A stretch of 36,165 bases of DNA from an uncultured bacterium (GCA_913062615.1 CAJXXI010000004.1:1-36165); one strand, 5' to 3'. Shown: positions 2,816 to 36,165, counted from the first letter of the stretch. Translations and numbers: made by a program. The notes: a model not told the origin generated them from the letters alone.

Positions 2816-5137
2816 ATGGCTACCAATCACGATTCATCACATGATTCTGCTCACGCCGCTGTAGTCGGCGGGTGGTCTCGTCTTATCGACGGGTACTTCG
2901 CGGTGGTGCTGGTGTGTGTGATATCGTTGGCGACCTGGATCTCGGCGTATACACATATCTTCCATACATCTCAGCGTGCCAAAGCGATCGAGCATCAAAG
3001 GCAAGTAGTTGAGATTCGGGACGATATTTTAGAGCGGTTTGAGTGTTATCATATTGGTCTCGAGTTCGGATTGAGCTTTATCAACTCGAGCGACTTTGTT
3101 TCTCGCAGCGAGTGGGCGCAGTTCTACAACGATCAGAGGCTTGAGGAACATTTTCCTGGGATATTGGGATTCGGGTTTGTCGAGGTTGTTGAAGCTGATC
3201 GGGTTGATGAGTTTGTCGAAGCGGTCCGGAGCGACGGCACACCAGCGTATCGTGTGCATGCGTTTCCTGGATTTGATGAGCCCGATGAGGATGCGACCAA
3301 GTATCTGATTAAATACAATGTGCCGGCGTCGAGGAATCAGAGCGCGTGGGGTCTTGATGTCGCGGCCAGGCCAGCAAACAAGATTGTGTACGATCAGTCG
3401 CGTGATTTGGGTGGGATAAGCGTGTCTGATCCGATTCAGCTCTTCCAAAATGGCGAAAGCGAATGGGGGTTGGTATTTGCGATGCCCTTGTATCAAAAGG
3501 GTGTGGTAGTGTCGACACTTGAGCAGCGGCGTGAAGCGATCGTCGGTTGGGTGGTGGCGGCGATCAGTCTCGATCGTTTCTTCGCATCCGAGTGGCCTGA
3601 GGGCTGGGATAGGTTTGATATCCAGGTCGAGAGCCGGGCTGGCGGAGTGATCTATCAATCTTCTGATTACATTCCGGGTGGACCAAATGCAGAGCGCGAG
3701 GAAATGACGCGTATTTCATTGCCGGTCGATAATCTGCCGTTGGTGTTGGGTGTGGCGCCAAAGCAGCCTGCAAAGGTCTGGGCAGCATCTCGGCTCGGTG
3801 GCATAGTTCTATTTAGCGGGCTCTTGATCACGGTGTTGTTGACGATGATTACGTGGTCGTTGACACGAACACGGGCCAATGCTATTGGTATTGCTCGTTC
3901 GATGACGAGTTCGATTCGAGAGAGTGAATACCGTTTGCGGGTGTTGGCGCTCCAGGCGGACGCGGCGAACAAGGCAAAGACTGAGTTTCTGGCGAATATG
4001 AGCCATGAGATTCGTACGCCGATGACGGCAATACTTGGGTACAGCGAGTTGCTCGAAGAGAAAATGACTGAAACTACGAGCACATCAACTTTCGAGGCGA
4101 TCGACGCGATTGGGCGTTCGGGCAAGCACCTGATGAAGATTATTAACGATGTGTTGGATCTTTCCAAGATTGAGTCTGGCAAGTTCAGTGTTGATATTGA
4201 GCCATGTTCAATCCTTGAAGCTGTTCATGATGTATTAGCAGCGATGCAGATAGGCGCTCGGAAGAATGGTCTTGACTTGAGTGTGGAGTTTAAAAACGAG
4301 ATTCCCACACAGGTTTATACTGACGGGTATCGGATCAGGCAGATTTTGTTGAATCTTATTGGTAATGCGATCAAGTTTACGCCGACTGGAACGGTGAAAG
4401 TGGTTCTTGATTTGGATGATCAATACATACGTGTTTCTGTAGAGGATTCTGGTGTTGGTATTCCTGAGTCAGAACTTGAAGGGCTCTTTGATCCTTTCGA
4501 GCAGCTTGATAGCTCGTTGACACGCAATCATCAGGGGACCGGGCTTGGGCTCACTATCTCTAGGCATCTCGCTCAGATGCTCGGGGGGGGAATCGAAGTT
4601 GAATCATATGTGGGAGTTGGTTCTACATTTACGCTTACCATCCCCGCGAACTGTCTGCCCGATTCATTGTTTGCAACCGAGTTGCCCAATAAGGGGGGGG
4701 CTGATTCAGATGATAGTGCGCGTAAGCCTCGTCTTGAATCGGCCAAGCTCTTTGGGCATGTGTTGTTGGCCGAGGATGGGGTAGATAATCAGAAGTTGAT
4801 CTCGCGGGTGTTGCGCAAGGCGGGGTTGGATGTTGAGATTGTTGAGAATGGTCAGCAGGCGATTGATTTTCTGAGTCAGCCTCACACGATTGATTTGGTT
4901 CTGATGGATATGCAGATGCCGATTGTTGACGGGTATGCAGCGGCCCGCGAGCTGCGTGAGCGTGGGTGTGATCTTCCGATTGTCGCGCTCACTGCGCATG
5001 CGATGGCGGGGTCGCGGGATGATTGCATGAATGCGGGGTGCGACGATTACGCGACCAAGCCGATCGAACGAGACAAGCTCTTTGAGATTCTCCGTCGTTT
5101 GCTCGATCAGGAAATCGCCCGTAAGCCCGCGGCTTAG
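2816..5137 (+). CDS. CHASE-domain hybrid sensor histidine kinase with C-terminal receiver
   Basis: The ATG at 2816 (773 residues) places the first membrane helix at about residues 24-46, as usual for this architecture; the frame is open upstream to 2612. A periplasmic CHASE-type sensor follows (RNQSAWGLDVA is typical of this domain), then a second helix near residues 320-345. The HisKA domain carries the phospho-acceptor in NMSHEIRTP (about residue 397). The HATPase shows its N, G1 and G2 boxes (NLIGNAIKFTP, DSGVGIPE, GTGLGLTISRHL). The receiver from about residue 648 has acidic AED, phospho-acceptor LMDMQMP, TA and KP. CHASE domains sense small ligands such as cytokinin-like molecules, but the ligand here is unknown. 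No phosphotransfer protein or output regulator lies next to it. Confidence 0.92.
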   Translation: MATNHDSSHDSAHAAVVGGWSRLIDGYFAVVLVCVISLATWISAYTHIFHTSQRAKAIEHQRQVVEIRDDILERFECYHIGLEFGLSFINSSDFVSRSEWAQFYNDQRLEEHFPGILGFGFVEVVEADRVDEFVEAVRSDGTPAYRVHAFPGFDEPDEDATKYLIKYNVPASRNQSAWGLDVAARPANKIVYDQSRDLGGISVSDPIQLFQNGESEWGLVFAMPLYQKGVVVSTLEQRREAIVGWVVAAISLDRFFASEWPEGWDRFDIQVESRAGGVIYQSSDYIPGGPNAEREEMTRISLPVDNLPLVLGVAPKQPAKVWAASRLGGIVLFSGLLITVLLTMITWSLTRTRANAIGIARSMTSSIRESEYRLRVLALQADAANKAKTEFLANMSHEIRTPMTAILGYSELLEEKMTETTSTSTFEAIDAIGRSGKHLMKIINDVLDLSKIESGKFSVDIEPCSILEAVHDVLAAMQIGARKNGLDLSVEFKNEIPTQVYTDGYRIRQILLNLIGNAIKFTPTGTVKVVLDLDDQYIRVSVEDSGVGIPESELEGLFDPFEQLDSSLTRNHQGTGLGLTISRHLAQMLGGGIEVESYVGVGSTFTLTIPANCLPDSLFATELPNKGGADSDDSARKPRLESAKLFGHVLLAEDGVDNQKLISRVLRKAGLDVEIVENGQQAIDFLSQPHTIDLVLMDMQMPIVDGYAAARELRERGCDLPIVALTAHAMAGSRDDCMNAGCDDYATKPIERDKLFEILRRLLDQEIARKPAA

Positions 5138-5194
5138 AGTGTTGTGTGGGTTGGTGGCGGTGTCTGAGCCATGAGAATCTTGTGATTAAAAAGT

Positions 5195-5210
5195 ATTTGT
5201 GAGAACAAAT
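5195..5210. promoter_or_regulatory. Palindromic operator 1, upstream of marR
   Basis: ATTTGTGAGAACAAAT is an inverted repeat (ATTTGT/ACAAAT) 30 bp before the marR ATG. It fits the pattern A-N-TTGT-N4-ACAAAT shared with two sites upstream of the pirin gene. MarR repressors bind such 16-bp palindromes, so autoregulation is likely. This is inferred from sequence only. Confidence 0.65.
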
Positions 5211-5239
5211 GTGCGTGCGCGATGCGCATAGCATGTGCT

Positions 5240-5740
5240 ATGGCACGGACACTCAAAGAACAGATCGGTAAGCGAGACGGGTTCGCGTCGGCTCAAGAAG
5301 AGGCGATGCTGAATGTGTATCGAACCGCGTCGTATTTGAGCGGCCCGGAGCACGCGTTGTTCAAATCATTCGATCTTTCACCCGCATCATACAACCTGCT
5401 TCGGATTCTTCGCGGGCACGATCGGCGCGGAGAGCGTGATGGTGTGCGGGCTTCAGAAATCGGGGGCGAGATGGTGGTGCGGATGCCCGATGTGACCAGG
5501 CTTGTCGATCGGCTTGAGGCGAAGAAGTTGGTGTCTCGGCGGGTTGGTGCAGACGACAAGCGGGTGAAGTTTGTGAAGATTTCCAAGCGTGGGCTCGGAT
5601 TGCTCGAGCAGATTGGTCCCAAGATTGATCGGCTCATTGATGATCAGCTCGGGCATCTGTCGGCGAAAGATGTCAATGAGCTGTCGCGGCTGTTAGAGCT
5701 GGTTCGCAATGAAGATGGCGAGAAGAAAGGTCTAAAATGA
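5240..5740 (+). CDS. MarR-family transcriptional regulator
   Basis: The protein has 166 residues from ATG 5240 (MARTLKEQIGKRDGF); an in-frame ATG at 5222 would add six residues. Winged-helix features typical of MarR are present: LSPASYNLLRILRG, the recognition region GEMVVRMPDVTRLVDRLEAKKLV and the wing SRRVGADDKRVKFVKISKRG. MarR dimers repress genes for efflux, oxidative or quinone stress and release DNA on ligand binding or thiol oxidation. A palindrome 30 bp upstream is repeated before the pirin gene, so this regulator probably controls itself, the overlapping flavodoxin-like gene (ATGA overlap) and pirin. The effector is unknown. Confidence 0.9.
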   Translation: MARTLKEQIGKRDGFASAQEEAMLNVYRTASYLSGPEHALFKSFDLSPASYNLLRILRGHDRRGERDGVRASEIGGEMVVRMPDVTRLVDRLEAKKLVSRRVGADDKRVKFVKISKRGLGLLEQIGPKIDRLIDDQLGHLSAKDVNELSRLLELVRNEDGEKKGLK

Positions 5741-6477: not shown

Positions 6478-7173
6478 ATGATCACGGTACGGAAAAGCTC
6501 AGATCGCGGACACTTAGATCACGGGTGGCTCGATGCTAATCACACATTCAGCTTTGGGCAGTTTGTTGATCCCGAGTGGATGGGGTTCCGGTCGCTTCGG
6601 GTGATCAACGAGGACCGCATCGCAGCCAAGAAAGGCTTTGGCGAGCATGGGCATCGGGATATGGAGATCATCACTTATCCGATCTCGGGCGCGTTGCGTC
6701 ATCGTGATTCGCTCGGCAACGAAGAAGATATTGAGCATGGGATGATCCAGCGGATGAGCGCCGGGTCGGGGATTCGGCACAGCGAGTTCAATCCGGGCGA
6801 CGAGAAGACACACATGCTTCAGATCTGGATTGAGCCGAGAGAAACAGGGATTGAACCAACGCATGAATCCCGTCGGTTCCCGATTGTCAACAAGCCGGGG
6901 CGGTTGCATTTGCTGGCGTCGGGCGATGGAGAAAATGGATCGATGGTGATCCAGCAGGACGCGTCGCTGTCGGCTGGGGTGTTTGGGGTGGGTGATGTCG
7001 AACAGGTATCACTTGAGTCCGGTCGCCATGCATGGGTGCAGGTTGTTCATGGCAGCGTGCGTGTGCTCGGGGAGTTGCTCTCGACGGGCGACGGGGCCGC
7101 GATTAGTGAAGAAGGATTGGTCGAGTTTGAGTTTGAATCACCGAGCGAGATTCTTGTCTTTGATCTCGCATAA
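6478..7173 (+). CDS. Pirin-family bicupin (YhhW/YhaK-type)
   Basis: This 231-residue protein has the length of E. coli YhhW, which has quercetinase activity. The N-terminal cupin supplies metal ligands in FGEHGHRDMEI (H57, H59) and GIRHSEFN (H101, E103), the His3Glu set expected of an active metal site. The C-terminal half forms the second, metal-free cupin (HAWVQVVHGSVRVLGE). Two copies of the putative MarR operator lie upstream, so it probably belongs to the same stress regulon as the flavodoxin-like gene. A GGGGCAGGGC tract precedes the ATG. The substrate (flavonoid, quinone or other phenolic) is not readable. Family confidence is high. Confidence 0.93.
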   Translation: MITVRKSSDRGHLDHGWLDANHTFSFGQFVDPEWMGFRSLRVINEDRIAAKKGFGEHGHRDMEIITYPISGALRHRDSLGNEEDIEHGMIQRMSAGSGIRHSEFNPGDEKTHMLQIWIEPRETGIEPTHESRRFPIVNKPGRLHLLASGDGENGSMVIQQDASLSAGVFGVGDVEQVSLESGRHAWVQVVHGSVRVLGELLSTGDGAAISEEGLVEFEFESPSEILVFDLA

Positions 7174-7227
7174 CGAAATACACAGAAGTTTAATCACAGG
7201 TTACTCCACACAGAAAGAAGGATTACG

Positions 7228-7596
7228 ATGACACAGACAACAACAACAGTGAGCCAGCGCGTTGAGCAGCTTCAGGGTTTTATCAACGAGGGCAAGATAC
7301 TCGAAGCGATGGACGAGTTTTACGGCTCGGATATCTCGATGCGAGAGAACAACGAGCCTGCGACGGTTGGGCTGGCGGCGAACATCGTCCGCGAGAAGGA
7401 GTTTCTCTCGGTGGTGAAGCAATGGAACTGGACCAAGTGGCACGCGGTCGCGGTCAACGAGGACACGGGCGTTGCGTTCTTGGAGTACTCGTTCGAGTTT
7501 GTCAATACCGATGATCAGACGATCACCTATGAGCAGGCAACGGTTCAGCGGTGGGTCGATGGGAAGATTGTTTCCGAGCGTTTCTACCACGGCTAA
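7228..7596 (+). CDS. SnoaL-like / NTF2-fold protein
   Basis: This 122-residue protein has the short alpha+beta cone-barrel pattern of SnoaL/NTF2 proteins: an N-terminal helix (RVEQLQGFINEGKILEAMDEFYGSDISMREN) and C-terminal strands with VNEDTGVAFLEYSFEF and YEQATVQRWVDGKIVSERFYHG. Many such proteins are small isomerases or ligand-binding proteins without a fixed catalytic set. It follows pirin by about 50 nt with a good AGAAAGAAGGA-type ribosome binding site, so it is probably co-transcribed and under the same operators. A terminator follows. Function is unknown; a role in detoxifying small electrophiles is inferred from context only. Confidence 0.85.
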   Translation: MTQTTTTVSQRVEQLQGFINEGKILEAMDEFYGSDISMRENNEPATVGLAANIVREKEFLSVVKQWNWTKWHAVAVNEDTGVAFLEYSFEFVNTDDQTITYEQATVQRWVDGKIVSERFYHG

Positions 7597-7623
7597 GGTG
7601 GTCGCTCTGATTCGTGTGTGCAT

Positions 7624-7650
7624 GCACCCGGGCTTTGGTCCGGGTGCTTT
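7624..7650 (+). terminator. Terminator after the SnoaL-like gene
   Basis: An 8-bp GC-rich stem GCACCCGG/CCGGGTGC with an 8-nt loop is followed by a short TTT. It closes the pirin/SnoaL unit just before the dinB remnant. Confidence 0.65.
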
Positions 7651-7653
7651 GCA

Positions 7654-7963
7654 TTACAGGCGATCTTCTGGGTTGGAGCCCGGGCCGTGGAGGCCGTGTT
7701 GGGGCTTGGCTTTGAGGGTGGACGCGCGGGTGAGGGCGGATTTGCCGAACTTTGCGATGATGGCGTCGGTTGCTTGGTCGACCGCCTTGTTCGCGTTGCT
7801 CGATTGGTCATCGAAGAGACCTGCTTCAGCGGGGGATTCGGTGAGTTGAGTTAAACCGACGCCGATGAGGCGGACGGGGCGGAAGGTCTTGGCCCAGTGA
7901 TCGAAGAGGGATTTGGCAGCGTTGCGGATCGTGTTTTTGGTTTTCGATGGTGAGTGAACAGGT
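7654..7963 (-). pseudogene. Detached 3' fragment of dinB (duplicate of the intact gene's end)
   Basis: This minus-strand stretch is a close copy of the last roughly 100 codons of the intact dinB at 10739-11953. The translated frame ends in STLKAKPQHGLHGPGSNPEDR plus a stop, almost the same as the intact copy. The reading frame stays open through the C-terminal part despite scattered substitutions and a 3-nt in-frame difference near the stop. Upstream, towards 7940-7963, similarity decays with a deletion of about 20 nt and then ends, so the polymerase core is missing. It cannot encode a functional polymerase. The two dinB ends are direct repeats about 3.1 kb apart, bracketing cassette A. Confidence 0.85.
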
Positions 7964-8089
7964 ATCGATGGCGGCGGTGCGGTGGGGGAGATCAGCCTAT
8001 CGCCCTCAATCAGGGTGATGGCGATTAAAAATCATATTTATATGAGATTATGGCTTGTCCCCCCTCCACCGTTGCAGTAGCCTGATGAA
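7964..8089. other. AT-rich leader region of cassette A
   Basis: Between the dinB remnant and the first cassette A gene lies a hairpin ATCGCC...GGCGAT (7998-8024), then an AT-rich stretch (about 8024-8050) that may hold the cassette promoter. No clear -35/-10 pair could be assigned. Confidence 0.4.
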
Positions 8090-9175
8090 ATGTATAGATT
8101 TCGATCATGTATTGTTGCGATGGTATTTGTTGTGGGTGTGGAGGCTGCTTTTGGTCAAGAACACTCATTAGAGCAGCTTTTTCGGAAGCACATAGATGAG
8201 TCGCGAAAATTCGTATTGCATGAAAATATTGAGATATCCATGGACATGTTGGTAGGGATCAGGCTGCTAACTGACAAGGAAGTGGATAAGTTGAGCAGGC
8301 TTGCACCTACAGATATTGGTGCCGAGCATAGATATGAGAAATATCTTTCGCAAAGCAAGGCTGGTGGAGAGGCAAGTCGGTTCGAGTTATTTTATGGGAA
8401 TTCGGACTTGTGGCGATTAAATACTACTCCGATGACATACTCGGTTGTGCCTTATGTCGACCGGGCATCTGGAAGCGACGGGGATTGGATTCTTTCGTCG
8501 TATCAACTTCAAACATCGAGAAATTGGCGAGGTGTAGATGAAGACGCGGGGTACCGGCCTCAGGACAGGGTTGATCTTGTGATTAGAGGCATAGGTGTGA
8601 TGGTCGCGGGGGTTCCGTGGCCGGTTGATATGGAGTACTCAATTCTCAGTATCAATGATAAAAATGGGCAATCTGAGATACTTCTTGCTGTAGGTGAGGG
8701 GCAATATCGTTTAACGGTTGAAGTTGTGGGAGGCGGTGACCGCTTAAGAGTTAAGCGTGTAGAAAGTCTTCAAAGCGATGGGGCGAAGCCTGGGGTGGGG
8801 GAGTTTCAGGATTGGGAATATTCTGATATTTTGGGCGTGGATGTTGCCCGGACTTATATTTCAATATTGCCGAGTGGGCAGATGGAGAAAGAATGTCGAT
8901 TATTCCATATTGGAAAGTTGTCAAAGGATCTTGATGTGATTACTCGATCGCCATCAGCAGATGGGGTTGATGAGTTTCGCGGTGCGGCGACATATACCAG
9001 TGTAATTAAGCATACGGCGGGTGATCGTGTAAATGTAGACCACGAGTCAAGGGGCATAACGAGTGTTGTGGGCTTGGATTATGATAAAAATAGAGATTAT
9101 TCGTTTGTGTTTGTAGTGTCAGTTGTATTAGCCGCAGTGTTTGCGGTCATGGTTGTTCGAAAACGATCTGTTTGA
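8090..9175 (+). CDS. Cassette A: secreted, membrane-anchored protein of unknown function
   Basis: I do not recognise a family. The 361-residue product has an N-terminal signal peptide (hydrophobic SCIVAMVFVVGVEAAFG, cleavage probably before QEHS), a large extracytoplasmic domain rich in beta-type sequence, and a single C-terminal membrane helix (FVFVVSVVLAAVFAVMVV) followed by RKRSV. This gives a type I, periplasm-facing topology. The gene is visibly AT-richer than its flanks and leads a compact operon: the next ORF frame overlaps its stop, with the likely peptide start at 9187, then the MauE-like protein and the pseudopilin. Cassette B holds a different membrane-anchored protein at the equivalent functional slot. 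A scaffold or receptor role for the small Cys-rich product is only a guess. Confidence 0.8.
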   Translation: MYRFRSCIVAMVFVVGVEAAFGQEHSLEQLFRKHIDESRKFVLHENIEISMDMLVGIRLLTDKEVDKLSRLAPTDIGAEHRYEKYLSQSKAGGEASRFELFYGNSDLWRLNTTPMTYSVVPYVDRASGSDGDWILSSYQLQTSRNWRGVDEDAGYRPQDRVDLVIRGIGVMVAGVPWPVDMEYSILSINDKNGQSEILLAVGEGQYRLTVEVVGGGDRLRVKRVESLQSDGAKPGVGEFQDWEYSDILGVDVARTYISILPSGQMEKECRLFHIGKLSKDLDVITRSPSADGVDEFRGAATYTSVIKHTAGDRVNVDHESRGITSVVGLDYDKNRDYSFVFVVSVVLAAVFAVMVVRKRSV

Positions 9176-9186
9176 GAGGTGTAAAA

Positions 9187-9528
9187 ATGAAAGTTCAGTT
9201 GTTTGGTTTGGCAGGGGTGTTATTGTTCGGAACGGTTGCTGCGGCAGAGTGTTGGGACTTATTTTCGTTGGGAAATGCATGTGATATTAATCCTTGTTAT
9301 CGAAACGGTGTTTGTTCAGGAATTGTTTCGGACACGATAGATGAGGAGGTATTTATCGCTGTTTCTGGAAGCCCGGGTCGAAAAAAAGCGCCTAAAAATT
9401 ATTTGTGCCTGCAAGAGTGGACAGGACGTGATCAGTTTCAAAATTGCGGTACACCAAAGAGTTGCGAAGGGTTAGTTTCGGGTGATATTTTGACCGGGGG
9501 ACTATGTCCTGTTAGTGGTCCCGAGTAA
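9187..9528 (+). CDS. Cassette A: small secreted 8-Cys protein
   Basis: I chose the ATG at 9187 (113 residues) because GAGAGGTG is correctly spaced upstream and it opens a signal peptide (MKVQLFGLAGVLLFGTVAAA, cleavage before ECWD). The ORF-track start at 9172 is a TTG overlapping the previous stop. The mature part has eight cysteines (ECW, ACD, PCY, VCS, LCL, NCG, SCE, LCP), an even number that suggests four disulfides. No known domain is recognised; the DINPCYRNGVC stretch is superficially EGF-like. A MauE/DoxX-type membrane protein, a class needed for disulfide-rich methylamine dehydrogenase maturation, is encoded 18 nt downstream. Cassette B has a 6-Cys counterpart. Confidence 0.8.
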   Translation: MKVQLFGLAGVLLFGTVAAAECWDLFSLGNACDINPCYRNGVCSGIVSDTIDEEVFIAVSGSPGRKKAPKNYLCLQEWTGRDQFQNCGTPKSCEGLVSGDILTGGLCPVSGPE

Positions 9529-9546
9529 TTCGTAGGTGGAACGATT

Positions 9547-10002
9547 ATGAGACATGTATTCTCGACAGCGGCGGCATTCCTTGTCGCCGCTTTTATGATC
9601 TTTGCTGGAATCTCAAAGCTTGTGTTCTATGAGGAATTTGAAGCGGTGTTGAAGGATTGGTTGATCTTGCCTCAATGGGGATTGCCGATGATCATCATCG
9701 GGGTGCCGTTTCTTGAGATCATGCTTGGTCTTTGGCTTGTTTCTTCGCGATCGGATTGGCGGCCTCGGGTGTTTCTCATAGCGCTCCTGTGTGTTTTCAC
9801 GGTCACGGTGCTTATCGAAAACAGCTACAGCGGGAATGTTTCGTGTGGGTGTTTGGGCCAGGCGATGGATACGCCAACGAACATCGGTTTGCTCGTTTTA
9901 CGAAATATGGGACTGTGTTTGGCGTTAGTATTTCATCCATCCCTATTTACAAAGTTAGGGCGATATGCTCAATCGAAGAGAATCCGGATACACGCTGATT
10001 GA
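9547..10002 (+). CDS. Cassette A: MauE/DoxX-like redox-associated membrane protein
   Basis: This 151-residue protein has four predicted membrane helices (about residues 4-27, 45-65, 74-92 and 112-130). A periplasm-side CGC pair lies at C100/C102 in NVSCGCLGQAMDTP, the pattern of MauE/DoxX-type proteins. In methylamine utilisation, MauE is required with MauD for correct formation of the disulfide-rich MauA subunit. Here it follows a secreted 8-Cys protein gene by 18 nt, with a GTAGGTGG ribosome binding site. Its last 38 nt overlap the pseudopilin start, so expression is coupled. A role in thiol oxidation of the neighbouring protein is inferred. Cassette B carries a paralogue. Confidence 0.85.
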   Translation: MRHVFSTAAAFLVAAFMIFAGISKLVFYEEFEAVLKDWLILPQWGLPMIIIGVPFLEIMLGLWLVSSRSDWRPRVFLIALLCVFTVTVLIENSYSGNVSCGCLGQAMDTPTNIGLLVLRNMGLCLALVFHPSLFTKLGRYAQSKRIRIHAD

Positions 10003-10714
10003 ACTCTTTGTGGTGATCGTAGTAATTGCGGTGTTGATTGGGATTTTGGTGCCCACGCTCAAGCATGTTCGACGCAGTTCGCAGGATGCGGTGTCGCTTG
10101 CGAATATGCGCTCGCATACACAGGTGATGCATTTGTATGCGGGTGATTTTCGTGACTTTGCACCGTTCTTTGCCGACCCTAATGCGACTTATTCTGTGGC
10201 GCGGGGCGGGGGGCTCACGGTGACATTCGAATACTTTGGGAGTGTTGAGATGTGGGTGGTGGCGTTGGTTGATCGGTATTACGGGTTGGGGTTTGGGACG
10301 AATCAGTGGGACGAGAATATTGAGTGGAGCGTGTTTGCTCGCCCTGGGGTTGATGGGCACTTGTATCAATACAGTCCGACATTTTTGGCGCGGCCTCAGT
10401 ATTGGAATGAGAACACACGAGCCGAGGGGCAGCTGGGAGCGATTCGGATGAGCATGGTGCGCTATGCGTCTTCGAAAGCGTTGTTGTTAGAACTCGACGA
10501 GCAGCGGAGTTTTCCGGTTTGGGGTTCGAGGGGTTTGCTGGGTGATCGAGGGTGGGGGTTCTCGTTTGTTGATGGATCGGCGCGTCGGCCTTCGGCGGAT
10601 CGACTTGTTCAGCCGTACCATCGCGGGGAGGGTTCCGCGCATGGCGGGAGGTTTAATATCGGCGTTGTTGGTATGCATACCGAGGATGGCGTGCTGGGGC
10701 GTGATGTTGAGTGA
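9965..10714 (+). CDS. Cassette A: type II pseudopilin-like protein
   Basis: The 249-residue protein starts with a class III prepilin signal, ESG|YTLIELFVVIVVIAVLIGILVPTL, with the expected glycine at -1 and glutamate at +5. Its globular domain shares ARPxxW, S-x-VRY-x-S-x-K and FVDGSA with the cassette B pseudopilin at 22007, so the two are paralogues. The FVDG(S/H)A block resembles the H-x9-DG region of the planctomycete DUF1559/prepilin family. It overlaps the MauE-like gene and is the last gene of the cassette, convergent with dinB. No prepilin peptidase or ATPase is encoded in the window, so these would have to be supplied from elsewhere. Confidence 0.9.
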   Translation: MLNRRESGYTLIELFVVIVVIAVLIGILVPTLKHVRRSSQDAVSLANMRSHTQVMHLYAGDFRDFAPFFADPNATYSVARGGGLTVTFEYFGSVEMWVVALVDRYYGLGFGTNQWDENIEWSVFARPGVDGHLYQYSPTFLARPQYWNENTRAEGQLGAIRMSMVRYASSKALLLELDEQRSFPVWGSRGLLGDRGWGFSFVDGSARRPSADRLVQPYHRGEGSAHGGRFNIGVVGMHTEDGVLGRDVE

Positions 10715-10738: not shown

Positions 10739-11953
10739 TTATTGCGGGCGGTCTTCTGGGTTTGAGCCGGGGCCGTGGAGGCCGTGTTGGGGCTTGGCTT
10801 TGAGGGTGGACGCGCGGGTGAGGGCGGCTTTGCCGAACTTTGCGATGATGGCGTCGGTTGCTTGGTCGACTGCCTTGTTGGCGGTGCTCGATTGGTTGTC
10901 GAAGAGCCCGGGTTCGGCGGGGGATTCGGTGAGTTGGGATAAGCCGACCCCGATGAGGCGGACGGGGCGGAAGGTCTTGGCCCAGTGATCGAAGAGGGAT
11001 TTGGCAGCTGCGTGGATGGTGTTGGTTTCGTTGGTTTGGTTATCGAGGGTGGTTGAGCGGGTGATGGTTTCGAAATCGCCGAACCGGACTTTGATGGAGA
11101 TTGTTTTGGCGTAGCGTTCGTGCTTGCGCAGGCGCGACGCGACATCGACGGCTTGTCTCGCGATGATCGCGCGGACTTCGTCGGCGTTATCGAGATCGGT
11201 CTCGAAGGTGTGTTCGTGGGAGATGGATTTCGCGCCGCGGTCGATGCGGACTGGGCGGTCGTCGATGCCTCGTGATAGGCGGTAGAGTTTTTCGCCGAAG
11301 TCTCCTAGGCGTGCGGTGAGGGTTTCGATGGGGAGCCCGCGGAGCTGGGCGACGGTGTGGACGCCGAGGCGTTCGAGGTTTCGTTGGGTGGATTTGCCGA
11401 CGCCCCAGAGTCTGGAGACGGGGAGTGGGTCGAGGGTTGATTGAATGGTTTCGTTGGTGATGACGGTGTAGCCGTCGGGTTTGTTCATGTCGGAGGCGAG
11501 CTTGGCGAGGAACTTGTTGGGCGCGATCCCGACGGAGCAGGTGAGGTTGAGTTCTTGTTTGACGAGTTTGCGGATTTCGATGGCGATGGTTGTGGGGGAG
11601 CCGAAGAGATGGAGTGAGCCGGTGACATCGAGGAATGCTTCGTCGACGGAGATGGGTTGGATGGCGGGGGAGAAGCGTTCGAGGATTTCGAAGACTTGTT
11701 TGGAGACTGTGGAGTAGACGCCGTGGGAGCCTTTGACGAAGATGGCGTTTGGGCAGAGTCGTTTGGCGATTGATGATGGCATGGCCGAGTGGCACCCGAA
11801 GACGCGTGCTTCGTAGGATGCTGCGGCGACGACTCCGCGTGGGCCATCGCCGCCGACGAGTACGGGCTTGCCCCGCAACTCAGGATGATCCCGCTGCTCA
11901 ACAGAAGCAAAGAAGGCATCCATATCGATATGAAGAATAGAGCGGGGAGGCAT
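10739..11953 (-). CDS. dinB: DNA polymerase IV (Y-family)
   Basis: The 404-residue protein is a complete translesion polymerase. HIDMDAFFASVEQ carries the first catalytic aspartate (D10) and the steric-gate region; SVDEAFLDVTGS provides D104/E105. The thumb helix-hairpin-helix (LPVSRLWGVGKSTQRNLERLGV) and little-finger domain follow. Translesion polymerases bypass DNA damage at the cost of fidelity. The gene is last in a tight minus-strand run behind an FHA-GAF kinase and a membrane-anchored protein (6- and 7-nt gaps). Its 3' end is duplicated at 7654-7963, on the far side of cassette A. No clear ribosome binding site precedes the ATG. Confidence 0.96.
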   Translation of the reverse strand: MPPRSILHIDMDAFFASVEQRDHPELRGKPVLVGGDGPRGVVAAASYEARVFGCHSAMPSSIAKRLCPNAIFVKGSHGVYSTVSKQVFEILERFSPAIQPISVDEAFLDVTGSLHLFGSPTTIAIEIRKLVKQELNLTCSVGIAPNKFLAKLASDMNKPDGYTVITNETIQSTLDPLPVSRLWGVGKSTQRNLERLGVHTVAQLRGLPIETLTARLGDFGEKLYRLSRGIDDRPVRIDRGAKSISHEHTFETDLDNADEVRAIIARQAVDVASRLRKHERYAKTISIKVRFGDFETITRSTTLDNQTNETNTIHAAAKSLFDHWAKTFRPVRLIGVGLSQLTESPAEPGLFDNQSSTANKAVDQATDAIIAKFGKAALTRASTLKAKPQHGLHGPGSNPEDRPQ

Positions 11954-11959
11954 GGATGA

Positions 11960-12619
11960 TTAATCAGGTGTTGGTGGCTGATAGTTTGGCTTGAGCGTGG
12001 CCGCGAAATCTCGAAGGACATCCAAGGTTTGGGTATCCAGCGTGTAAGCGTGGTCATCGATTGATAAGGAAAGTGATTCAGAGTTAATCGCGTTTACTAA
12101 AAAAATGATCGGGATTTCGAATCTCAAAGTCTGGTCGTGATCAACATCATACGAAGATAGGTGGAGGTGAACTATCTCATCAGATCTCAATGTAAACCGG
12201 GTATTCGCCCAATCGTCAAAAGATCGTCGGTATGACCCGCTGGCAATTAGATCAAGTTTGATTGTTGGTGCGTAGTAAAACTGCGGATCATAAATGAGAA
12301 TGTAAGCGCTCAGTTTAATCTTCAATTCAGACGACAGCATGATTCCGTCGGGTTGCGGCTCGATGATTATTGAGTTTGTGTTGACTCTTAAGTTAGAGGA
12401 GCTTTGGTCGAATACCAATCGGTTTTGAATTTCGACAGATGGTTCTGGGTAATCAAGGTTGGTAATCCGATCTTGTTCTTTTTTGTCAAGGTAATAGCGT
12501 ATGGGAAAGTACAGCCAGCTTACACTGCCTAAGAGAAGAAGCCCGGCAATAAAACATGTGACCGGGCGGGCCCGGCGTAGTTTTTTGTCTCTGCGTATAT
12601 GAAACGAACTCTTCATCAT
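11960..12619 (-). CDS. Membrane-anchored protein of unknown function
   Basis: This 219-residue protein is not recognised. A basic N terminus (HIRRDKKLRRARP) precedes one membrane helix (VTCFIAGLLLLGSVSWLYF, about residues 20-38), giving an N-in, C-out topology with about 170 residues outside. That domain looks beta-rich and has no cysteines or catalytic motif I can name. It is squeezed between the FHA-GAF kinase (7 nt) and dinB (6 nt), so it is probably co-transcribed with both. It is clearly AT-richer than either neighbour, which may indicate later acquisition. It has a start choice at the first or second codon (MM). Confidence 0.75.
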   Translation of the reverse strand: MMKSSFHIRRDKKLRRARPVTCFIAGLLLLGSVSWLYFPIRYYLDKKEQDRITNLDYPEPSVEIQNRLVFDQSSSNLRVNTNSIIIEPQPDGIMLSSELKIKLSAYILIYDPQFYYAPTIKLDLIASGSYRRSFDDWANTRFTLRSDEIVHLHLSSYDVDHDQTLRFEIPIIFLVNAINSESLSLSIDDHAYTLDTQTLDVLRDFAATLKPNYQPPTPD

Positions 12620-20279: not shown

Positions 20280-20297
20280 AAACTCATTATTGAGTTT
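20280..20297 (+). terminator. Weak hairpin after rpoN
   Basis: A 7-bp AT-rich stem AAACTCA/TGAGTTT with a TTAT loop begins 1 nt after the rpoN stop. The following GTTCT is a poor T-tract. Confidence 0.5.
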
Positions 20298-20331
20298 GTT
20301 CTAATGTATGTAAAATAGATTCGCTATCACC

Positions 20332-20360
20332 TTGACACCGTGTTTATGATGTTGTAGGGT
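20332..20360 (+). promoter_or_regulatory. Candidate sigma-70-type promoter of cassette B
   Basis: A perfect TTGACA is followed after 17 nt by TAGGGT. The -10 ends 6 nt before an ATG at 20367 that opens the frame MESQS, suggesting a leaderless start. That frame is closed by a stop unless the heptamer repeat at 20399 gains one copy. Confidence 0.55.
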
Positions 20361-20386
20361 ATGGTCATGGAATCGCAATCCACAGT

Positions 20387-20866
20387 TTGTGTTATAGACC
20401 CGCCTCCCGCCTCCCGCGTTTAGCAGTTGCATTGGGTGCGAGATCAGCAACCATCGCGTTGGGGGTCATCTATTTCATTGCCGCGATTGGTAAGGGGACT
20501 CAGGTGCCCCGGACAGCCACGGTTGTGGAGTCGGTATTGCTTGTTGGTAGCCAGGTTTCACATCTCATTGTTCTGATCCTTGTTCTGGCCGAGCTCGTGC
20601 TTGCGGGGATGTTGGTTGGTGGGTATCGTCTTCGGTCGGCGAGTATCGCTAGTTTAGCACTTGGTGTGGTCTTTCTATTGTGGCACCTTCTTGTGTGGCT
20701 AGAGCCATGGGCTACAGATTGTGGGTGCGGGGCACCGCCAATGATGAAGAAGCTACTCAGTGATTCGAGCGCAGGGCTTGGGCTTGCGGGTATCGTTTTT
20801 GTGCTGTCTGGGGTTGCTGTATTGGGGTATGCGTGTAGAGATTTTAAGTTGGAGAACTCGTTGTGA
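20387..20866 (+). CDS. Cassette B: MauE/DoxX-like redox-associated membrane protein
   Basis: The paralogous slot to 9547-10002. The 159-residue frame opens at a TTG (20387) and shows four membrane helices (about 22-36, 57-80, 86-105 and 132-152). The CGC pair lies at C112/C114 in WATDCGCGAPP. The start is uncertain: no ribosome binding site precedes the TTG. The ATG at 20367, right behind a good promoter, is in another frame and stops at 20421. The two frames would join if the heptanucleotide CCCGCCT between them had one more copy. MauE-type proteins support disulfide formation in secreted Cys-rich partners; a 6-Cys secreted protein gene follows 34 nt later. Family call good, start poor. Confidence 0.78.
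   Translation: MCYRPASRLPRLAVALGARSATIALGVIYFIAAIGKGTQVPRTATVVESVLLVGSQVSHLIVLILVLAELVLAGMLVGGYRLRSASIASLALGVVFLLWHLLVWLEPWATDCGCGAPPMMKKLLSDSSAGLGLAGIVFVLSGVAVLGYACRDFKLENSL
20399..20417 (+). repeat. Heptanucleotide tandem repeat (CCCGCCT, 2.7 copies)
   Basis: CCCGCCT-CCCGCCT-CCCGC lies within the first codons of the MauE-like gene. Adding one unit would fuse the upstream ATG frame (20367) to the membrane protein. It is a candidate slipped-strand switch or the scar of one. Confidence 0.7.
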
Positions 20867-20900
20867 GTTGTCTGTTATCAGTTTGAAAAGGAGAAGTAGT

Positions 20901-21161
20901 ATGATTACTCGTAAAACTTTAGTTCACTCGGCAATGGTTTTGGGCGTGTTATTTGTAAGTGTGATGATCGCGGACGCAGCGGCCGGTGGTCTTCCTTTGC
21001 CGCAATGTGAGCATGTGCAATATTGCTACGACGGAGAGGGCAATCTCACCTCAACAACAACCGCATACGGTGGTGTTTGCCGCATAAATCAAAAATGTGT
21101 AGGGGATGGTGGTTGTGATCCAACGCCATGGGCCGTGGCGGATTGTGTAGACCAGCAATAG
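20901..21161 (+). CDS. Cassette B: small secreted 6-Cys protein
   Basis: The ATG at 20901 has an ideal AAAAGGAG ribosome binding site, giving 86 residues; the longer ORF-track frame from 20760 overlaps the previous gene. A signal peptide (KTLVHSAMVLGVLFVSVMIADAAA) releases a mature segment of about 58 residues with six cysteines (QCE, YCY, VCR, KCV, GCD, DCV), so up to three disulfides. There is no known domain. Size, Cys-richness and position next to a MauE-like gene match the 8-Cys protein of cassette A, but little sequence identity is visible outside the spacing of cysteines. It could be a secreted peptide, a small redox subunit or a structural cap. Confidence 0.8.
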   Translation: MITRKTLVHSAMVLGVLFVSVMIADAAAGGLPLPQCEHVQYCYDGEGNLTSTTTAYGGVCRINQKCVGDGGCDPTPWAVADCVDQQ

Positions 21162-21233
21162 TGTTTGTCGGTCGTTAAGATTGAATGCGTGCGGTGGAAT
21201 TTGTCTGAAGTCGAAGTAGTGGGGTGGTTTTTT

Positions 21234-22010
21234 ATGTCAACAAAAGTTCGAATGATGGTCGCCGTTGCAGTTGTTGCAGGTGGATTGTTTGTGTTACTTC
21301 GCAGCTATATGTTGGCAGGCCCTCCTTCTGCGACAGCAACTTCTGAAAATGAAATATCTGCAGTTGTTGCAAAGGAACTCGGATCTGATCGGTTTAGTGT
21401 CAGGCTCAAACCCGAAGATGTTTCTGATTCCTTCGATATCATTCACGCTTCGATCATTGAGCAGGCCAAAGAGATCCAATCAGTTCGACAGCTCGGTACA
21501 TTGGGAGTTGAGGATCTGGCGTCAGGATTCGTGGAACGAATTCGGTTTATGCTCGCGCCTGACATATCTCGTGATTATGTTTCATTCAAAGCACGAGGTG
21601 ATCCGAGGGGCATTGAAGAATGGACCGCGGATTTTGAGAAATACATCGAGTATACACAGGAAAGTAAAGAAGTTCCTGGGATGGATTTAGAGGGCGTCGA
21701 GGTTCGTCTTATCCTTTTCGATAGGGATGGTGAGCAGGTGCTTGGGCAGGAAAGGCTTGCTCAAGGGTTTGGCATGACTATTGGGACTGGGGTAAAATCG
21801 GGTGTGTTGCCCAAAGAATCCAGGATTGCAGGTATGCTTGTAGTTGAAGTAGTGATGCCGATCGAGCGTATGGATATGATTAAGCGACATCTAGCGCCAG
21901 CGATTCAGGGATATCATTTTGCGTGGAGTCCGAAGATTGAAAAATGGATTCCCTATGAATCAGTTGTTTATAGTGTTCGGGGTAGCGCGTTTGGTGCACC
22001 GCCGGTATGA
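21234..22010 (+). CDS. Cassette B: membrane-anchored protein of unknown function
   Basis: The ATG at 21234 gives 258 residues and follows a GGGGTGG ribosome binding site; the ORF-track start at 21165 is less likely. One N-terminal helix (RMMVAVAVVAGGLFVLLRSYML) anchors an outward-facing alpha/beta domain without cysteines (ENEISAVVAKELGSDRFSVRL... GMLVVEVVMPIERMDMIKRHL). I recognise no family. The stop overlaps the pseudopilin start (ATGA), a sign of translational coupling. It is AT-richer than rpoN or clpC. It fills the position of the unknown anchored protein of cassette A, but I could not align the two. A bitopic partner of the pseudopilin is possible. Confidence 0.78.
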   Translation: MSTKVRMMVAVAVVAGGLFVLLRSYMLAGPPSATATSENEISAVVAKELGSDRFSVRLKPEDVSDSFDIIHASIIEQAKEIQSVRQLGTLGVEDLASGFVERIRFMLAPDISRDYVSFKARGDPRGIEEWTADFEKYIEYTQESKEVPGMDLEGVEVRLILFDRDGEQVLGQERLAQGFGMTIGTGVKSGVLPKESRIAGMLVVEVVMPIERMDMIKRHLAPAIQGYHFAWSPKIEKWIPYESVVYSVRGSAFGAPPV

Positions 22011-22777
22011 ATAATGATCGCAATAACAACGCATTTACACTCATTGAGTTGATGGTCTCGATCGGTATCATTGCGATTTTGATTTCGATCGCGATCCCTG
22101 CGCTTAGCGGGGTTCGTCAGCGAGCGAGAGATGCGATCGGTTTATCAAATTTACGCCAGACAAGTGTGGCTATGGAGAACTATGTGCAGGCGTATGGGGG
22201 GTGGCTACCCTACGCGAAAGAGGGTAGTGGTTTTCGTCTCACGCCTGAAGTGCCGCCGTCGAGTGTGATTCGGCCGGGCTATTGGGATACAAGTTCCTAT
22301 TGGTCGTCCTTATTCCACGAAGTTGCTCCGTGGGACCAGTGGTTTGGGATGTGGGTCTATCCGGATCCTCGACGACCGACGAGCAAGCCTTGGGCTATTG
22401 ACTCAACCTCGGATTCACCGTTTAGTAATGGGGTGAGTTCGTTGGAATACGCCCGTTCGCTTTATGCTCGCCCTGAGATTTGGGAATCGGGCGGGATTAT
22501 TGAAGATCGAGACTCGGTGCTCCGCGGGGTTCGGCATTCTGAGGTGCGATATCCATCTGCAAAGGTGAGTTTGTTTGATAGCGAGTTATGCGCGCGTGTG
22601 CGGTGCGATGATCCTAAAACGGTCAAGCGGGCGATGCTCTTTGTCGATGGGCATGCTGCCATGAAGGCGTTGAGTGATGCCAACGCGCCGGTCAAGGGAC
22701 GTTTACCCGAGTTGGCGGCGTATGGCGCGTTGGCGGTGCATGATACGGCCGGTGGGGCTCGAGGGCGAGATTATTAG
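22007..22777 (+). CDS. Cassette B: type II pseudopilin-like protein
   Basis: The 256-residue paralogue of the cassette A pseudopilin. The N terminus NNNA|FTLIELMVSIGIIAILISIAIPAL is a class III prepilin signal, but the residue before the cleavage point is alanine where glycine is usual; glutamate +5 is kept. The globular domain shares YARPEIW, SEVRYPSAKV and LFVDGHAAMKAL with the cassette A protein. The last motif is the H-x9-DG-like block of planctomycete DUF1559-type pilins. It is coupled to the upstream gene by ATGA and ends the cassette, facing the convergent ABC permease gene with only 19 nt between stops. Confidence 0.9.
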   Translation: MNNDRNNNAFTLIELMVSIGIIAILISIAIPALSGVRQRARDAIGLSNLRQTSVAMENYVQAYGGWLPYAKEGSGFRLTPEVPPSSVIRPGYWDTSSYWSSLFHEVAPWDQWFGMWVYPDPRRPTSKPWAIDSTSDSPFSNGVSSLEYARSLYARPEIWESGGIIEDRDSVLRGVRHSEVRYPSAKVSLFDSELCARVRCDDPKTVKRAMLFVDGHAAMKALSDANAPVKGRLPELAAYGALAVHDTAGGARGRDY

Positions 22778-22796
22778 ATCAAGCAGAGAGCTTCTG

Positions 22797-29504: not shown

Positions 29505-30389
29505 ATGAAGTTGAATCGCAAAATCGTTGGGTGTGTCTCGATGTCTGTGTTGTCGATCGGATCGGGTGGGGCGATTGCTGGGGGAGGAGAGCCTTGTCCA
29601 GACTGTGTGATCGAGGTGCACGCGATCGCTGATGAGGCCTTGTTCGCACTGCTTGGGTCGGGGACCGAGGATTACATCCGCGATGTGATCGAGGGGATGG
29701 ATGCGGCGTGGTCGATGCCGACGGCTGATGGAGGGATGGGGGTTGGTGTGGTGCTCAGCGAGTTCACTGTGTATGAGAAGAGTGATCCTTGGGCAGTTTC
29801 AACGAATACGAATGTGCTCTTGCCGAATGTCCAGGAATATGTGTCTTCAACAATCCCGATGAATGCTGATGGTCAAGATGTGGTGCTGATGTTCAGCGGG
29901 CTGGACTTTGATGGGAGCACGACGGGGCTTGCGTATGTTGGTGTACTCTGCCGATCATTCTCGGTCGGCGTTTTGGAGTCGAGCCCAGACAACTTGGCGT
30001 GGGCAATTTCCGGAGCCAACCACCAACTCGGGCACATCGTGGGTGCGAGGCATGATGGAAGCGGAAACTCCTGCCAACAGGGCCCATACATCATGAGCCC
30101 ATTTTCGAATCCTTTATCTCCGCCTACGACCTTCAGCACATGTACCGTGGATTACTTTGCCGATCTAATCACAAACTCTTCCATCGATATCCCCGCGTGT
30201 CTTGCAGCACCGGCCCAGGCGTGCCCGGCGGATCTGACGGGTGATGGTGTGTTGAACTTCTTCGATGTCTCGGCGTTCCTTGGCGCATTTGCTCAAGGTG
30301 ATTTGATCGCTGATTTCACTGGTGATGGGCAGTTCAACTTCTTCGATGTGTCAGCGTTTCTTCAGGCCTTCGCTGCAGGGTGTCCATGA
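29505..30389 (+). CDS. Secreted metzincin-fold protein with E-to-Q active site and dockerin-like tail
   Basis: ATG 29505 (294 residues) follows GAAGGAT. A signal peptide (IVGCVSMSVLSIGSGGAIAGG) precedes a reprolysin/astacin-like domain. The zinc motif reads HQLGHIVGARHD (H173, H177, H183), so the three zinc ligands, the glycine and the adamalysin-type aspartate are intact, but the catalytic glutamate is Q174 (CAA codon at 30024). A Met-turn YIMSP (M197) is present. A bound zinc is therefore plausible while hydrolysis is not. Residues 240-294 are a twin EF-hand tail (DLTGDGVLNFFD and DFTGDGQFNFFD) ending AAGCP, shared with three other proteins here. It may act as a binding or decoy module. Confidence 0.85.
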   Translation: MKLNRKIVGCVSMSVLSIGSGGAIAGGGEPCPDCVIEVHAIADEALFALLGSGTEDYIRDVIEGMDAAWSMPTADGGMGVGVVLSEFTVYEKSDPWAVSTNTNVLLPNVQEYVSSTIPMNADGQDVVLMFSGLDFDGSTTGLAYVGVLCRSFSVGVLESSPDNLAWAISGANHQLGHIVGARHDGSGNSCQQGPYIMSPFSNPLSPPTTFSTCTVDYFADLITNSSIDIPACLAAPAQACPADLTGDGVLNFFDVSAFLGAFAQGDLIADFTGDGQFNFFDVSAFLQAFAAGCP

Positions 30390-31562: not shown

Positions 31563-32593
31563 ATACGAATCGAAATATGAAGCAGGTTAGTTTGGCGATG
31601 GCTGTGGTTTCGGTGGCGGGCGCGAGCGTGTTTGCTGGCGGGGCAACCCGCGCGTACATCATCGAAGGGTCTGGGTTCTTTGGAGCGCCGGGGATCGAGC
31701 TTGGGCGTGTGGGGTTGGTTGATCTGTCTGATCCGAGCGTAGTGACATCGGTTGCTTTGGCTGCGGCTGATCTGCGGTTCGGCGGGGCGGATATCCGCCC
31801 GGGGACGGCTGACTTGGTGGCGTTCGAGAACACGACCAATGCGCTGCGCACGCTCGATCTGATCAACGGCGGCAACACGCTGATCGATTCGATCGGCTAC
31901 ATGGATTCTGGTGTTGCGGGGATGGCGTATTCGAATGATGGATCTGTTGTGTATGTCACAACGACCGTCGGCGCGTTTCTGCGGATTGTTGAAGCCGACG
32001 CGGTTACCGGGGCGGTGCTTGATGTGCACAACATATTGAGCTTCGTTGCTTCGTCGTTGGCTGTTGTGCCCGAGGGGCATCCGTCGTTGGTTGCTGGAGA
32101 TTTGTACGGCTTGTCGCCGAGCTCTGGTGGTTCGCTCCGATTGGTGAAGATTGATTTGGATACGAACACGGTTGTATCGCAGTTGTCGTTGTTTGGAATT
32201 GGGTTCACGCCTCAGTTTGAGACCGGGTTGGACTTCGCGCCCGACGGCACGCTGTATGCGGTGATTCAAGGGTACGATGAGGTTTCGCCCGACAACTTTG
32301 TAGAGATATCAAGCCATCTGTACACGATCGATCCTCAGATCGGATCGGTCGTTGATCTTGGTGTGATCGAGGGCGATCAGACCTGGGATGCGGTGACGCT
32401 GGTGGTTGATGATGGGGTTGCGGGGTGCATCGCGGATCTCAATGGAGACGGGTCGCTCAACTTCTTTGATGTGAGTGCGTTCCTGAACGCATTTACAAAC
32501 GGTGATCTTGTAGCCGATTTTACGGATGATGGGTTGTTGAACTTCTTCGATGTCTCGGCGTTCCTTTCTGCGTTTGCTGCTGGGTGCCCATAA
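31559..32593 (+). CDS. Secreted beta-propeller-like protein with dockerin-like tail
   Basis: The 344-residue product, translationally coupled to the upstream propeller gene, has a signal peptide (QVSLAMAVVSVAGASVFAG|G). Blade-like repeats follow (AYIIEGSGFFGAP, GMAYSNDGSVVYVTTT, GLDFAPDGTLYAVIQG). The last 58 residues form the twin EF-hand tail DLNGDGSLNFFDVSAFL and DFTDDGLLNFFDVSAFL, ending AAGCP. Calcium-binding dockerin-type loops would normally dock to a cohesin, but no cohesin is evident in the window. A terminator follows. The exact ligand or enzymatic role is unknown. Confidence 0.82.
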   Translation: MNTNRNMKQVSLAMAVVSVAGASVFAGGATRAYIIEGSGFFGAPGIELGRVGLVDLSDPSVVTSVALAAADLRFGGADIRPGTADLVAFENTTNALRTLDLINGGNTLIDSIGYMDSGVAGMAYSNDGSVVYVTTTVGAFLRIVEADAVTGAVLDVHNILSFVASSLAVVPEGHPSLVAGDLYGLSPSSGGSLRLVKIDLDTNTVVSQLSLFGIGFTPQFETGLDFAPDGTLYAVIQGYDEVSPDNFVEISSHLYTIDPQIGSVVDLGVIEGDQTWDAVTLVVDDGVAGCIADLNGDGSLNFFDVSAFLNAFTNGDLVADFTDDGLLNFFDVSAFLSAFAAGCP

Positions 32594-34873: not shown

Positions 34874-36165
34874 TTATGGGCACCCGGCGTTGAAGGTGCT
34901 CAAGAAGGCCGAGATATCAAAGAAGTTAAACAGCCCGTCGTCGTTCAGATCGGCACCCGGGTCGCTTGCGCTGAACGCGGAGAGGAATGCCGAGACATCG
35001 AAGAAGTTCAACACGCCGAACGGTTCGGCGAGGTCTGCGTCATTGCAGCCGCCCGAGAGTTGATCGACGCCGACATAGATGTTGTCGATGTGGAACGCGC
35101 CGGTGGTTGATGCGCTGATCCGCAAACGCATCTCGGCGATCGCGATCGCGGTGAAGGGGACATCGATTTCGATGAGCTGGGCGTTGGTTGTCAGGTCTGC
35201 GCCGGTGATGGTGGCAGCGGGTATCCAGTCTTCGACGATATTGAGGACCTCGATGCTCAGCTCATCAGCTGGAGAAACCGATCCATCGGTCCACGCATCG
35301 AAGCGGATGAACGCCGGGACAACCCCGAACTGGTCGAGCGGGATATCACGTGATTCGATCAGGTCTCCGTCGGTGAGTTGTGCAGATAGGTTGTTCGAGG
35401 CGATCGATACGACGGCGCCTTGGACATCATCCCAGCGGGCACCTGAGATCATTGAGGACTCGAAGTTGTCCTCAAGCGGTGCGGTTGAATCGGCGAGGAG
35501 GTTGATGGAGAACGAGTCGATCATCCATGTGTCCGAAGCATCGGAGCCATTGGCAGCGAACCGGATCTTTGTGCCGTGCCATTCGTAATCGTTTGGCAGG
35601 ACGATCTCGTAGGAGACGAACTCTGAGCCGACGAGCCCTTGCCCGGAGATCGACACGAGTGTGGTCCATGTGTCGGGGAGGGTTTCTGGATTTTCTAGGT
35701 ATTGAACATCGAACGTTTCGCCCGGCTCGATGCTTGATGCTTTGAGATCAAACCCGAGGACAATATCACCAAAGAGCGAACGCCCCGCGAGGGCAACGGT
35801 TTCGAGGACATCGGTTTGGTTGAGTTCGAGCACGCTTGTGCCATTGGGCGCGTCGGGCGCCGTGGTTGTCTGGACACTGCCTGATGTCGCGACGAATACG
35901 TCTTGCCATGCGATCGATTCGAATGACTCGGCGATCGGTGTTTGGATCGGGCGGACATACGCCTGGGCGAGCTCGATCGCTTTTCGTGTGTTGACGCGTC
36001 CGCGTCCGAAGTGATCGTCGCGACCCGTTGCGCCCAGGTCATCGACGCTGTTGTAGAGGATGTGCTGGACATCGTCGCCGTTGAACTCTGGGTTGACGGC
36101 ATAGATCATCGCGCCGACGCCTGCAGCGATCGGTGATGCGTAGCTTGTGCCCGAGCCGTTGCCGT
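34874..36165 (-). CDS. Subtilase (S8 family) C-terminal part with dockerin-like tail; start beyond the window
   Basis: The minus-strand frame is open to the right edge, so the ORF-track start at 36109 is internal. At the edge the frame reads GNGSGTSYASPIAAGVGAMIY, the subtilisin motif with the catalytic serine; the Asp and His motifs must lie outside. The catalytic domain ends near GRGRVNTRKAIELAQAY. Two beta-sandwich-like modules follow (each with WMIDSFSINLL or FHIDNIYVGVDQL phrases typical of jelly-roll or P-domain-like modules). The tail ends DLNDDGLFNFFDISAFLSTFNAGCP, the same twin EF-hand sorting/docking tail as three neighbours. This is a secreted serine protease; the substrate is unknown. 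Confidence 0.9.
   Translation of the reverse strand, partial: GNGSGTSYASPIAAGVGAMIYAVNPEFNGDDVQHILYNSVDDLGATGRDDHFGRGRVNTRKAIELAQAYVRPIQTPIAESFESIAWQDVFVATSGSVQTTTAPDAPNGTSVLELNQTDVLETVALAGRSLFGDIVLGFDLKASSIEPGETFDVQYLENPETLPDTWTTLVSISGQGLVGSEFVSYEIVLPNDYEWHGTKIRFAANGSDASDTWMIDSFSINLLADSTAPLEDNFESSMISGARWDDVQGAVVSIASNNLSAQLTDGDLIESRDIPLDQFGVVPAFIRFDAWTDGSVSPADELSIEVLNIVEDWIPAATITGADLTTNAQLIEIDVPFTAIAIAEMRLRISASTTGAFHIDNIYVGVDQLSGGCNDADLAEPFGVLNFFDVSAFLSAFSASDPGADLNDDGLFNFFDISAFLSTFNAGCP

Follow-up and report, generated by a model that had tools for sequence, protein, structure and literature searches.

Four-gene cassettes pairing MauE-like proteins and pseudopilins with Cys-rich secreted proteins recur in a family of uncultured planctomycetes

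Four closely spaced genes at positions 8,090–10,714 of the window, as we call the whole 36,165-nucleotide stretch of DNA analysed here, bring together a small Cys-rich secreted protein, a membrane protein of the MauE type, a pseudopilin and an anchored protein, which raises the question of whether this combination is a chance neighbourhood or a unit that recurs in related genomes, and what such a unit might do. The first-pass annotation had read these genes as one compact operon, and all four ORFs were confirmed, with Pfam supplying the families of the MauE protein and the pilin; an Rfam scan gave no match. The genes of this set, cassette A, are the following.

8090–9175, + strand: type I anchored protein, 361 aa, with a signal peptide, a predicted LolA/LolB/RseB-like domain, a C-terminal transmembrane (TM) segment and a basic RKR tail
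9187–9528, + strand: secreted 8-Cys protein, 113 aa from the ATG at 9187, with a signal peptide and 8 mature Cys
9547–10002, + strand: MauE/DoxX-type membrane protein with a CGC motif (Pfam MauE PF07291, E = 6.1e-19)
9965–10714, + strand: pseudopilin with an N-terminal methylation motif (Pfam N_methyl PF07963, E = 1.7e-5, above the cut-off) and a C-terminal HT..G..GRD signature

The pseudopilin and MauE genes share 38 bp, and the MauE motif reads SCGCLG. A second set, cassette B (20387–22777), lies in the same window in the permuted order MauE, Cys protein, anchored protein, pilin.

20387–20866, + strand: MauE (Pfam MauE, E = 4.7e-11), start codon uncertain, 20387 or 20459
20901–21161, + strand: secreted 6-Cys protein, 86 aa, with a signal peptide, aligning with other type II Cys proteins
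21231–22010, + strand: type II anchored protein with an N-terminal TM segment, matched by HMM to type II anchors and without a Pfam family
22007–22777, + strand: pseudopilin (Pfam N_methyl, E = 2.9e-8) with a C-terminal GGARGRDY

The MauE of cassette B carries the motif DCGCGA, and the MauE profile scores of 69.0 (A) and 43.5 (B) bits compare with a curated cut-off of 27. The pilins of the cassettes have G or A followed by F-T-L-x-E and then a hydrophobic helix, as prepilins do; their family alignment is conserved, and their C-terminal domain (HT..G..GRD) has no Pfam match. A third four-gene set was found on contig C130 of the same genome, in the order Cys protein (10 Cys), anchored protein, MauE, pilin, so that three of the genome's six MauE matches belong to four-gene sets; the genome also encodes 34 pilin-type proteins and, elsewhere, a match to Peptidase_A24, the prepilin peptidase domain, with a score just at the family cut-off. 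The strongest MauE of this genome sits in an unrelated neighbourhood of rhodanese-like, MauE, bS21-like and GAF-type genes (names assigned by eye), and this neighbourhood recurs in relatives without pilins; the conserved orthologue so placed is seen at L001 (1134–1688), L067, L075, L081 and L087.

Of 100 genomes from the same planctomycete family, 97 encode MauE, with up to 18 copies per genome. Its neighbourhoods, read in four multi-copy genomes, two genomes of the same genus and others, display three principal layouts: type I, as in cassette A, with the anchored protein followed by the Cys protein, MauE and pilin; type II, as on C130, with the Cys protein followed by an anchored protein with an N-terminal TM segment, MauE and pilin, of which cassette B is a permutation; and type III, with the pilin followed by the Cys protein, anchored protein and MauE. 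Divergent arrangements were also encountered (L089, L097, L133, L138, L159 and L125), in which the anchored protein and MauE occupy one strand and a pilin with a G..GRD-type tail the opposite one. In the one-contig genome G036, which matches CP054186.1 (Phycisphaeraceae bacterium H1_PLA1), a pilin lies no more than 3.3 kb from 12 of the 13 MauE genes, a proximity with p = 3.7e-10 under even placement of pilins, and 9 of those 12 pilins carry the C-terminal G..GxD signature. By comparison, only 1 of 5 and 1 of 3 MauE genes are near a pilin in the two same-genus genomes, and the distribution of the cassettes is therefore patchy.

A test that does not choose loci by MauE was obtained with the type I anchored protein as sole query against the family; this protein is present in 68 of 163 genomes. 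Among 65 non-redundant loci with enough surrounding sequence, a pilin lies downstream in 64, MauE is present in 55 and all four genes in 54; both MauE and the Cys gene are missing from six loci, MauE alone from three and the Cys gene alone from one. Cassette A is one of many copies of a four-gene set in this family of uncultured planctomycetes. It had been proposed at the outset that MauE genes beside pilins, together with a small even-Cys ORF bearing a signal peptide, would form a recurring association, and the check was strongly positive, with neither chance-level co-occurrence nor an ORF lacking conservation or translation turning up. A phylum-wide search with the anchored-protein alignment, scoring 6 candidates per genome, found matches in the own family only, which is weak as a sign of absence elsewhere, and a degenerate genome scan with a 5-row pilin alignment yielded 11 loci.

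The MauE and Cys genes mostly occur together. They are jointly present or jointly absent in 60 of 64 anchored-protein loci (Fisher p = 7.5e-6), and in a pooled set of 90 loci, or 88 after excluding two without a pilin, 76 have both, eight have neither, three have the Cys gene without an adjacent MauE and one has MauE only; the Cys-gene calls include two revised by eye, one an intact frame missed by the filter and the other broken by a TGA. On the tree of the anchored proteins it takes six or more changes along supported branches to explain the absence of both genes; the independent pairs agree 5 to 0, although the phylogenetically corrected p of about 0.03–0.13 is weak and, the two genes being adjacent, a single deletion can take out both. 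The eight loci with an anchored protein and a pilin alone indicate that the Cys and MauE genes are a linked extra and not a constant component, and that the pilin is able to act without a Cys cargo.

The small Cys-rich ORF had been taken for a real gene in the first reading, and signal-peptide Cys proteins indeed occupy the equivalent position in nearly all related cassettes, which, together with dN/dS < 1 in close pairs, argues against a chance ORF. Their mature Cys counts are mostly even (6, 8, 10 or 12), and their Cys skeletons are partly conserved within a type, with Cys columns matched imperfectly (6/10) in one close pair. As judged from the substitution ratios, purifying selection acts on the Cys genes. 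Searches of Pfam and of PDB sequences identified no family or relatives for these proteins, and no binding domain was recognised. In two otherwise intact cassettes the Cys gene is damaged, by an in-frame TGA (L091, ~4840–5310) and by an apparent frameshift (L094, ~4930–5400), either through decay or through sequence error.

The anchored protein of cassette A, called unknown in the first-pass annotation, can now be given a probable fold from a fairly confident model. A PDB sequence search with it gave no match, and an AlphaFold2 model built with an 11-row alignment reached a pLDDT of 80 and a pTM of 0.71. Foldseek returned 18 matches with E ≤ 0.001, almost all LolA, LolB or RseB, with moderate TM-scores of 0.2–0.5; the PDB matches comprised LolA3, LolB, a LolA-superfamily protein, RseB and MucB (best E = 6e-8), with the LolA-type matches outscoring RseB. 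The type I anchored protein is thus predicted to have a LolA/LolB/RseB fold. In profile comparisons the type I anchors showed no homology to those of type II, nor did the Cys proteins of the two types to each other; at the level of sequence, the two types swap anchors and Cys proteins without detectable homology, yet keep MauE and the pilin.

In many cassettes MauE and the pilin are a single protein. They occupy one ORF at 48 of the 90 pooled loci and at 38 of 65 in the set chosen by the anchored protein only; assembly error is an unlikely source of these fusions, which span many genera and include examples from the one-contig genome. In a 406-aa example, Pfam MauE covers residues 14–144 and N_methyl residues 165–188, and solved pilins align to the fusion at the site that follows the MauE part, beginning with their mature residue 1. 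The prepilin motif within fused ORFs was located by pattern, which left 7 ORFs uncaught, and in all 51 fused ORFs in which it was found there is G or A at position −1 and E at +5. The CxC motif is likewise kept in 111 of 114 pilin-associated MauE proteins. If MauE consists of four helices with both ends inside, topology would place its C-terminus towards the cytoplasm, where prepilin peptidase makes its cut. An AlphaFold2 model of the fusion is confident in the MauE part and not in the pilin head, and Foldseek with this model gave no significant match. The full-length fusion was found in the own family only, in a class-wide sample with limited scoring depth. With a prepilin cleavage site inside it, the MauE–pilin fusion seems to be a protein architecture not described before, and it makes it possible to ask directly whether pilus assembly and disulfide formation are coupled.

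Comparison with related genomes bears on how the cassettes came to be where they are. Cassette B is a clean 2.5-kb insert after rpoN: 61 bp separate rpoN from the next gene in the sister genome G059 versus 2.5 kb in the window, and in five other genomes of the genus (G438, G441, G442, G431 and G436) the rpoN-side gene pair is adjacent and free of a cassette. Cassette A sits between SnoaL and dinB, which follow each other without a cassette in G441 and G434, while G059 lacks both cassette A and the two genes preceding it. The borders of the two insertions are given below.

7653–7950, − strand: incomplete copy of the dinB 3' end forming the left flank of cassette A, in direct repeat with 10741–11023 (90% over 299 bp)
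10739–11953, − strand: intact dinB (DNA polymerase IV; Pfam IMS, NCBIfam DNA polymerase IV) on the right flank of cassette A, its 3' end forming the second copy of the repeat
20280–22796, no strand assigned: region inserted with cassette B, flanked by rpoN and a gene for an ABC-type permease

The repeat of the dinB 3' end around cassette A had gone unmentioned in the first reading. A full dinB, an insert and a partial 3' copy are what would be expected if a circle with the dinB 3' end on it had integrated by a single crossover. In two members of the genus (G426 and G427; loci L244, ~7160–8870, and L245, 9753–11748) an anchored–pilin pair with neither MauE nor a Cys gene lies on the 5' side of dinB, so the flanks of dinB look like a repeated insertion spot. 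The AT-rich composition first noted is borne out, as GC contents of 48.5% for cassette A and 50.8% for cassette B fall below the 54.4% of the window. The mobility that it had suggested is supported by the empty sites in sister species, but no transposase or integrase lies between the borders of either insertion, and searches of phages, plasmids and viral contigs revealed no relative of the cassettes. Elsewhere in the window, a 219-aa membrane-anchored ORF with a low GC3 of 0.48 (11960–12619, − strand), between dinB and a histidine kinase gene, may be a recent arrival, and an ORF at 612–1130 resembles REP-associated (RAYT/IS200-type) transposases, as judged by eye from an MPDHVHLL motif.

Several known systems share parts of the cassettes. 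The Verru_Chthon cassettes of the PVC superphylum (TIGR02596 and TIGR02599 in NCBIfam) are also multi-copy and encode prepilin-type proteins; to our knowledge they include no MauE or Cys protein. The pilins of cassettes A and B score 12–21 bits against these models, whose cut-offs are 70 and 256.5, the cassette A pilin reaching 21.3 bits with TIGR02596 and 12.2 with TIGR02599, both below threshold. The type II secretion and type IV pseudopilins GspG, PilA and ComGC have the prepilin motif and N-terminal helix in common with the cassette pilins, which match them in the N-terminal part only, and cassettes A and B, unlike type II secretion loci, consist of four genes between their flanks with none of the GspE/GspF type. 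The type I anchored protein shares its predicted fold with the LolA/LolB/RseB/MucB superfamily but adds a C-terminal TM anchor, is ~10% identical and gives no sequence-profile match. The large lineage-specific DUF1559 (SBP_bac_10) family of planctomycetes, with 74 members in Rhodopirellula baltica (PMC2754498), is also distinct, as the cassette pilins have no DUF1559 match in Pfam.

For MauE of the mau operon, the proposed role is in forming the disulfides of the MauA (beta) subunit (van der Palen 1997, cited in PMC7794033). The MauE of the cassettes belongs to the same Pfam family and has the same CxC motif; in contrast to the mau operon, MauD and the methylamine dehydrogenase genes are absent from the cassettes, the substrate would be an unrelated Cys protein and MauE is often fused to a pilin. 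No cassette protein other than MauE matched the mau families, and the cassettes contain no further ORF. Candidate RiPP clusters of Streptomyces likewise have MauE outside methylamine metabolism, beside a candidate peptide gene (PMC7794033); their products are predicted modified peptides, as opposed to signal-peptide proteins with 6–12 Cys, and the passages on them mention no pilin or LolA-like protein. The open-access literature yielded nothing relevant on MauE with pilins, pseudopilins or planctomycetes. The component families are thus known, whereas the set, its repeated occurrence and the MauE–pilin fusion appear to be undescribed.

The gene sets themselves are observed, as are the way they recur, the fusions, the motifs that are kept, the selection and the insertions; the function proposed for them is interpretation. 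The reading that we favour, to which we give a little less than an even chance, is that the cassette is a mobile unit that produces, disulfide-bonds and exports or displays one small Cys-rich protein. Sec would deliver the Cys protein to the periplasm, where MauE, through the CxC between TM3 and TM4, would help to form its disulfides, a step suggested by the co-occurrence of the two genes and by what MauE is reported to do for methylamine dehydrogenase. We conjecture further that the LolA/RseB-like anchored protein holds or passes on the product or a lipid partner, and that the pseudopilin, cut at G|F..E by a shared prepilin peptidase, enters a pilus or pseudopilus of the general machinery by which the product might be carried out or displayed, export being suggested by the gene families. 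The absence of MauD, the partner of MauE, counts against this reading. An export system that is self-contained, as first imagined, is not apparent: the cassette encodes no ATPase, platform protein or prepilin peptidase, so general pilus or type II machinery would have to serve. In a more daring form, which we hold to be possible and rather doubtful, the cassettes would constitute an undescribed class of mobile, multi-copy export-or-display unit in which a disulfide-forming MauE makes up the N-terminal half of the pilin, acting in effect as a four-TM leader that prepilin peptidase releases, so that pilus assembly is tied to the oxidation of a dedicated Cys-rich cargo. Planctomycetes have dozens of pilin-like proteins of obscure purpose, and the subset described here has fixed partners (cargo, oxidase and carrier), which makes its role testable.

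Somewhat unlikely, in our estimate, is that pilin and anchored protein form a pilus-tip or surface complex with the Cys protein as a stable adhesin or recognition head, the divergent copies amounting to a repertoire of heads. Many divergent paralogues per genome, the near-constant presence of the pilin and, in some close pairs, a Cys protein less conserved than the anchor (44% v 80%, 66% v 85%) would fit such surface display, whereas other close pairs lack this faster divergence (79% v 71%) and the Cys proteins, as noted, contain no recognised binding domain. An interbacterial or self-recognition system, with the Cys protein secreted as an antagonistic peptide, the LolA/RseB-like protein conferring immunity and the cassette spreading by insertion at new sites, would suit patchy, inserted and polymorphic cassettes; we regard it as improbable and have down-weighted it because the anchored protein is retained where the Cys gene is missing, eight times with a pilin, unlike what is expected of an immunity gene, and neither Pfam nor NCBIfam matched a toxin family. 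A sensor of envelope redox state or stress, in which MauE would set the redox state of the Cys protein, an RseB/MucB-like anchored protein would sense it and the pilin would act as transducer, draws on RseB and MucB being among the fold matches, yet it is very improbable given that LolA-type matches are better, that no anti-sigma or sigma partner was seen in the cassettes and that the permuted order and fused pilin are left unexplained. A chance meeting of MauE with pilin-like genes, which at 34 to 74 N_methyl genes per genome are certainly numerous, is refuted by the counts in the complete genome G036 and is at odds with the fusions, the conserved gene order and the conserved MauE orthologue found in another context without a pilin.

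Towards the end of the window, a dockerin-like C-terminal segment (ADLTGDG.LNFFDVSAFLGAFAAGCP) is repeated in four neighbouring secreted proteins, at 30218–30387, 32422–32591, 34607–34776 and 34974–35017.
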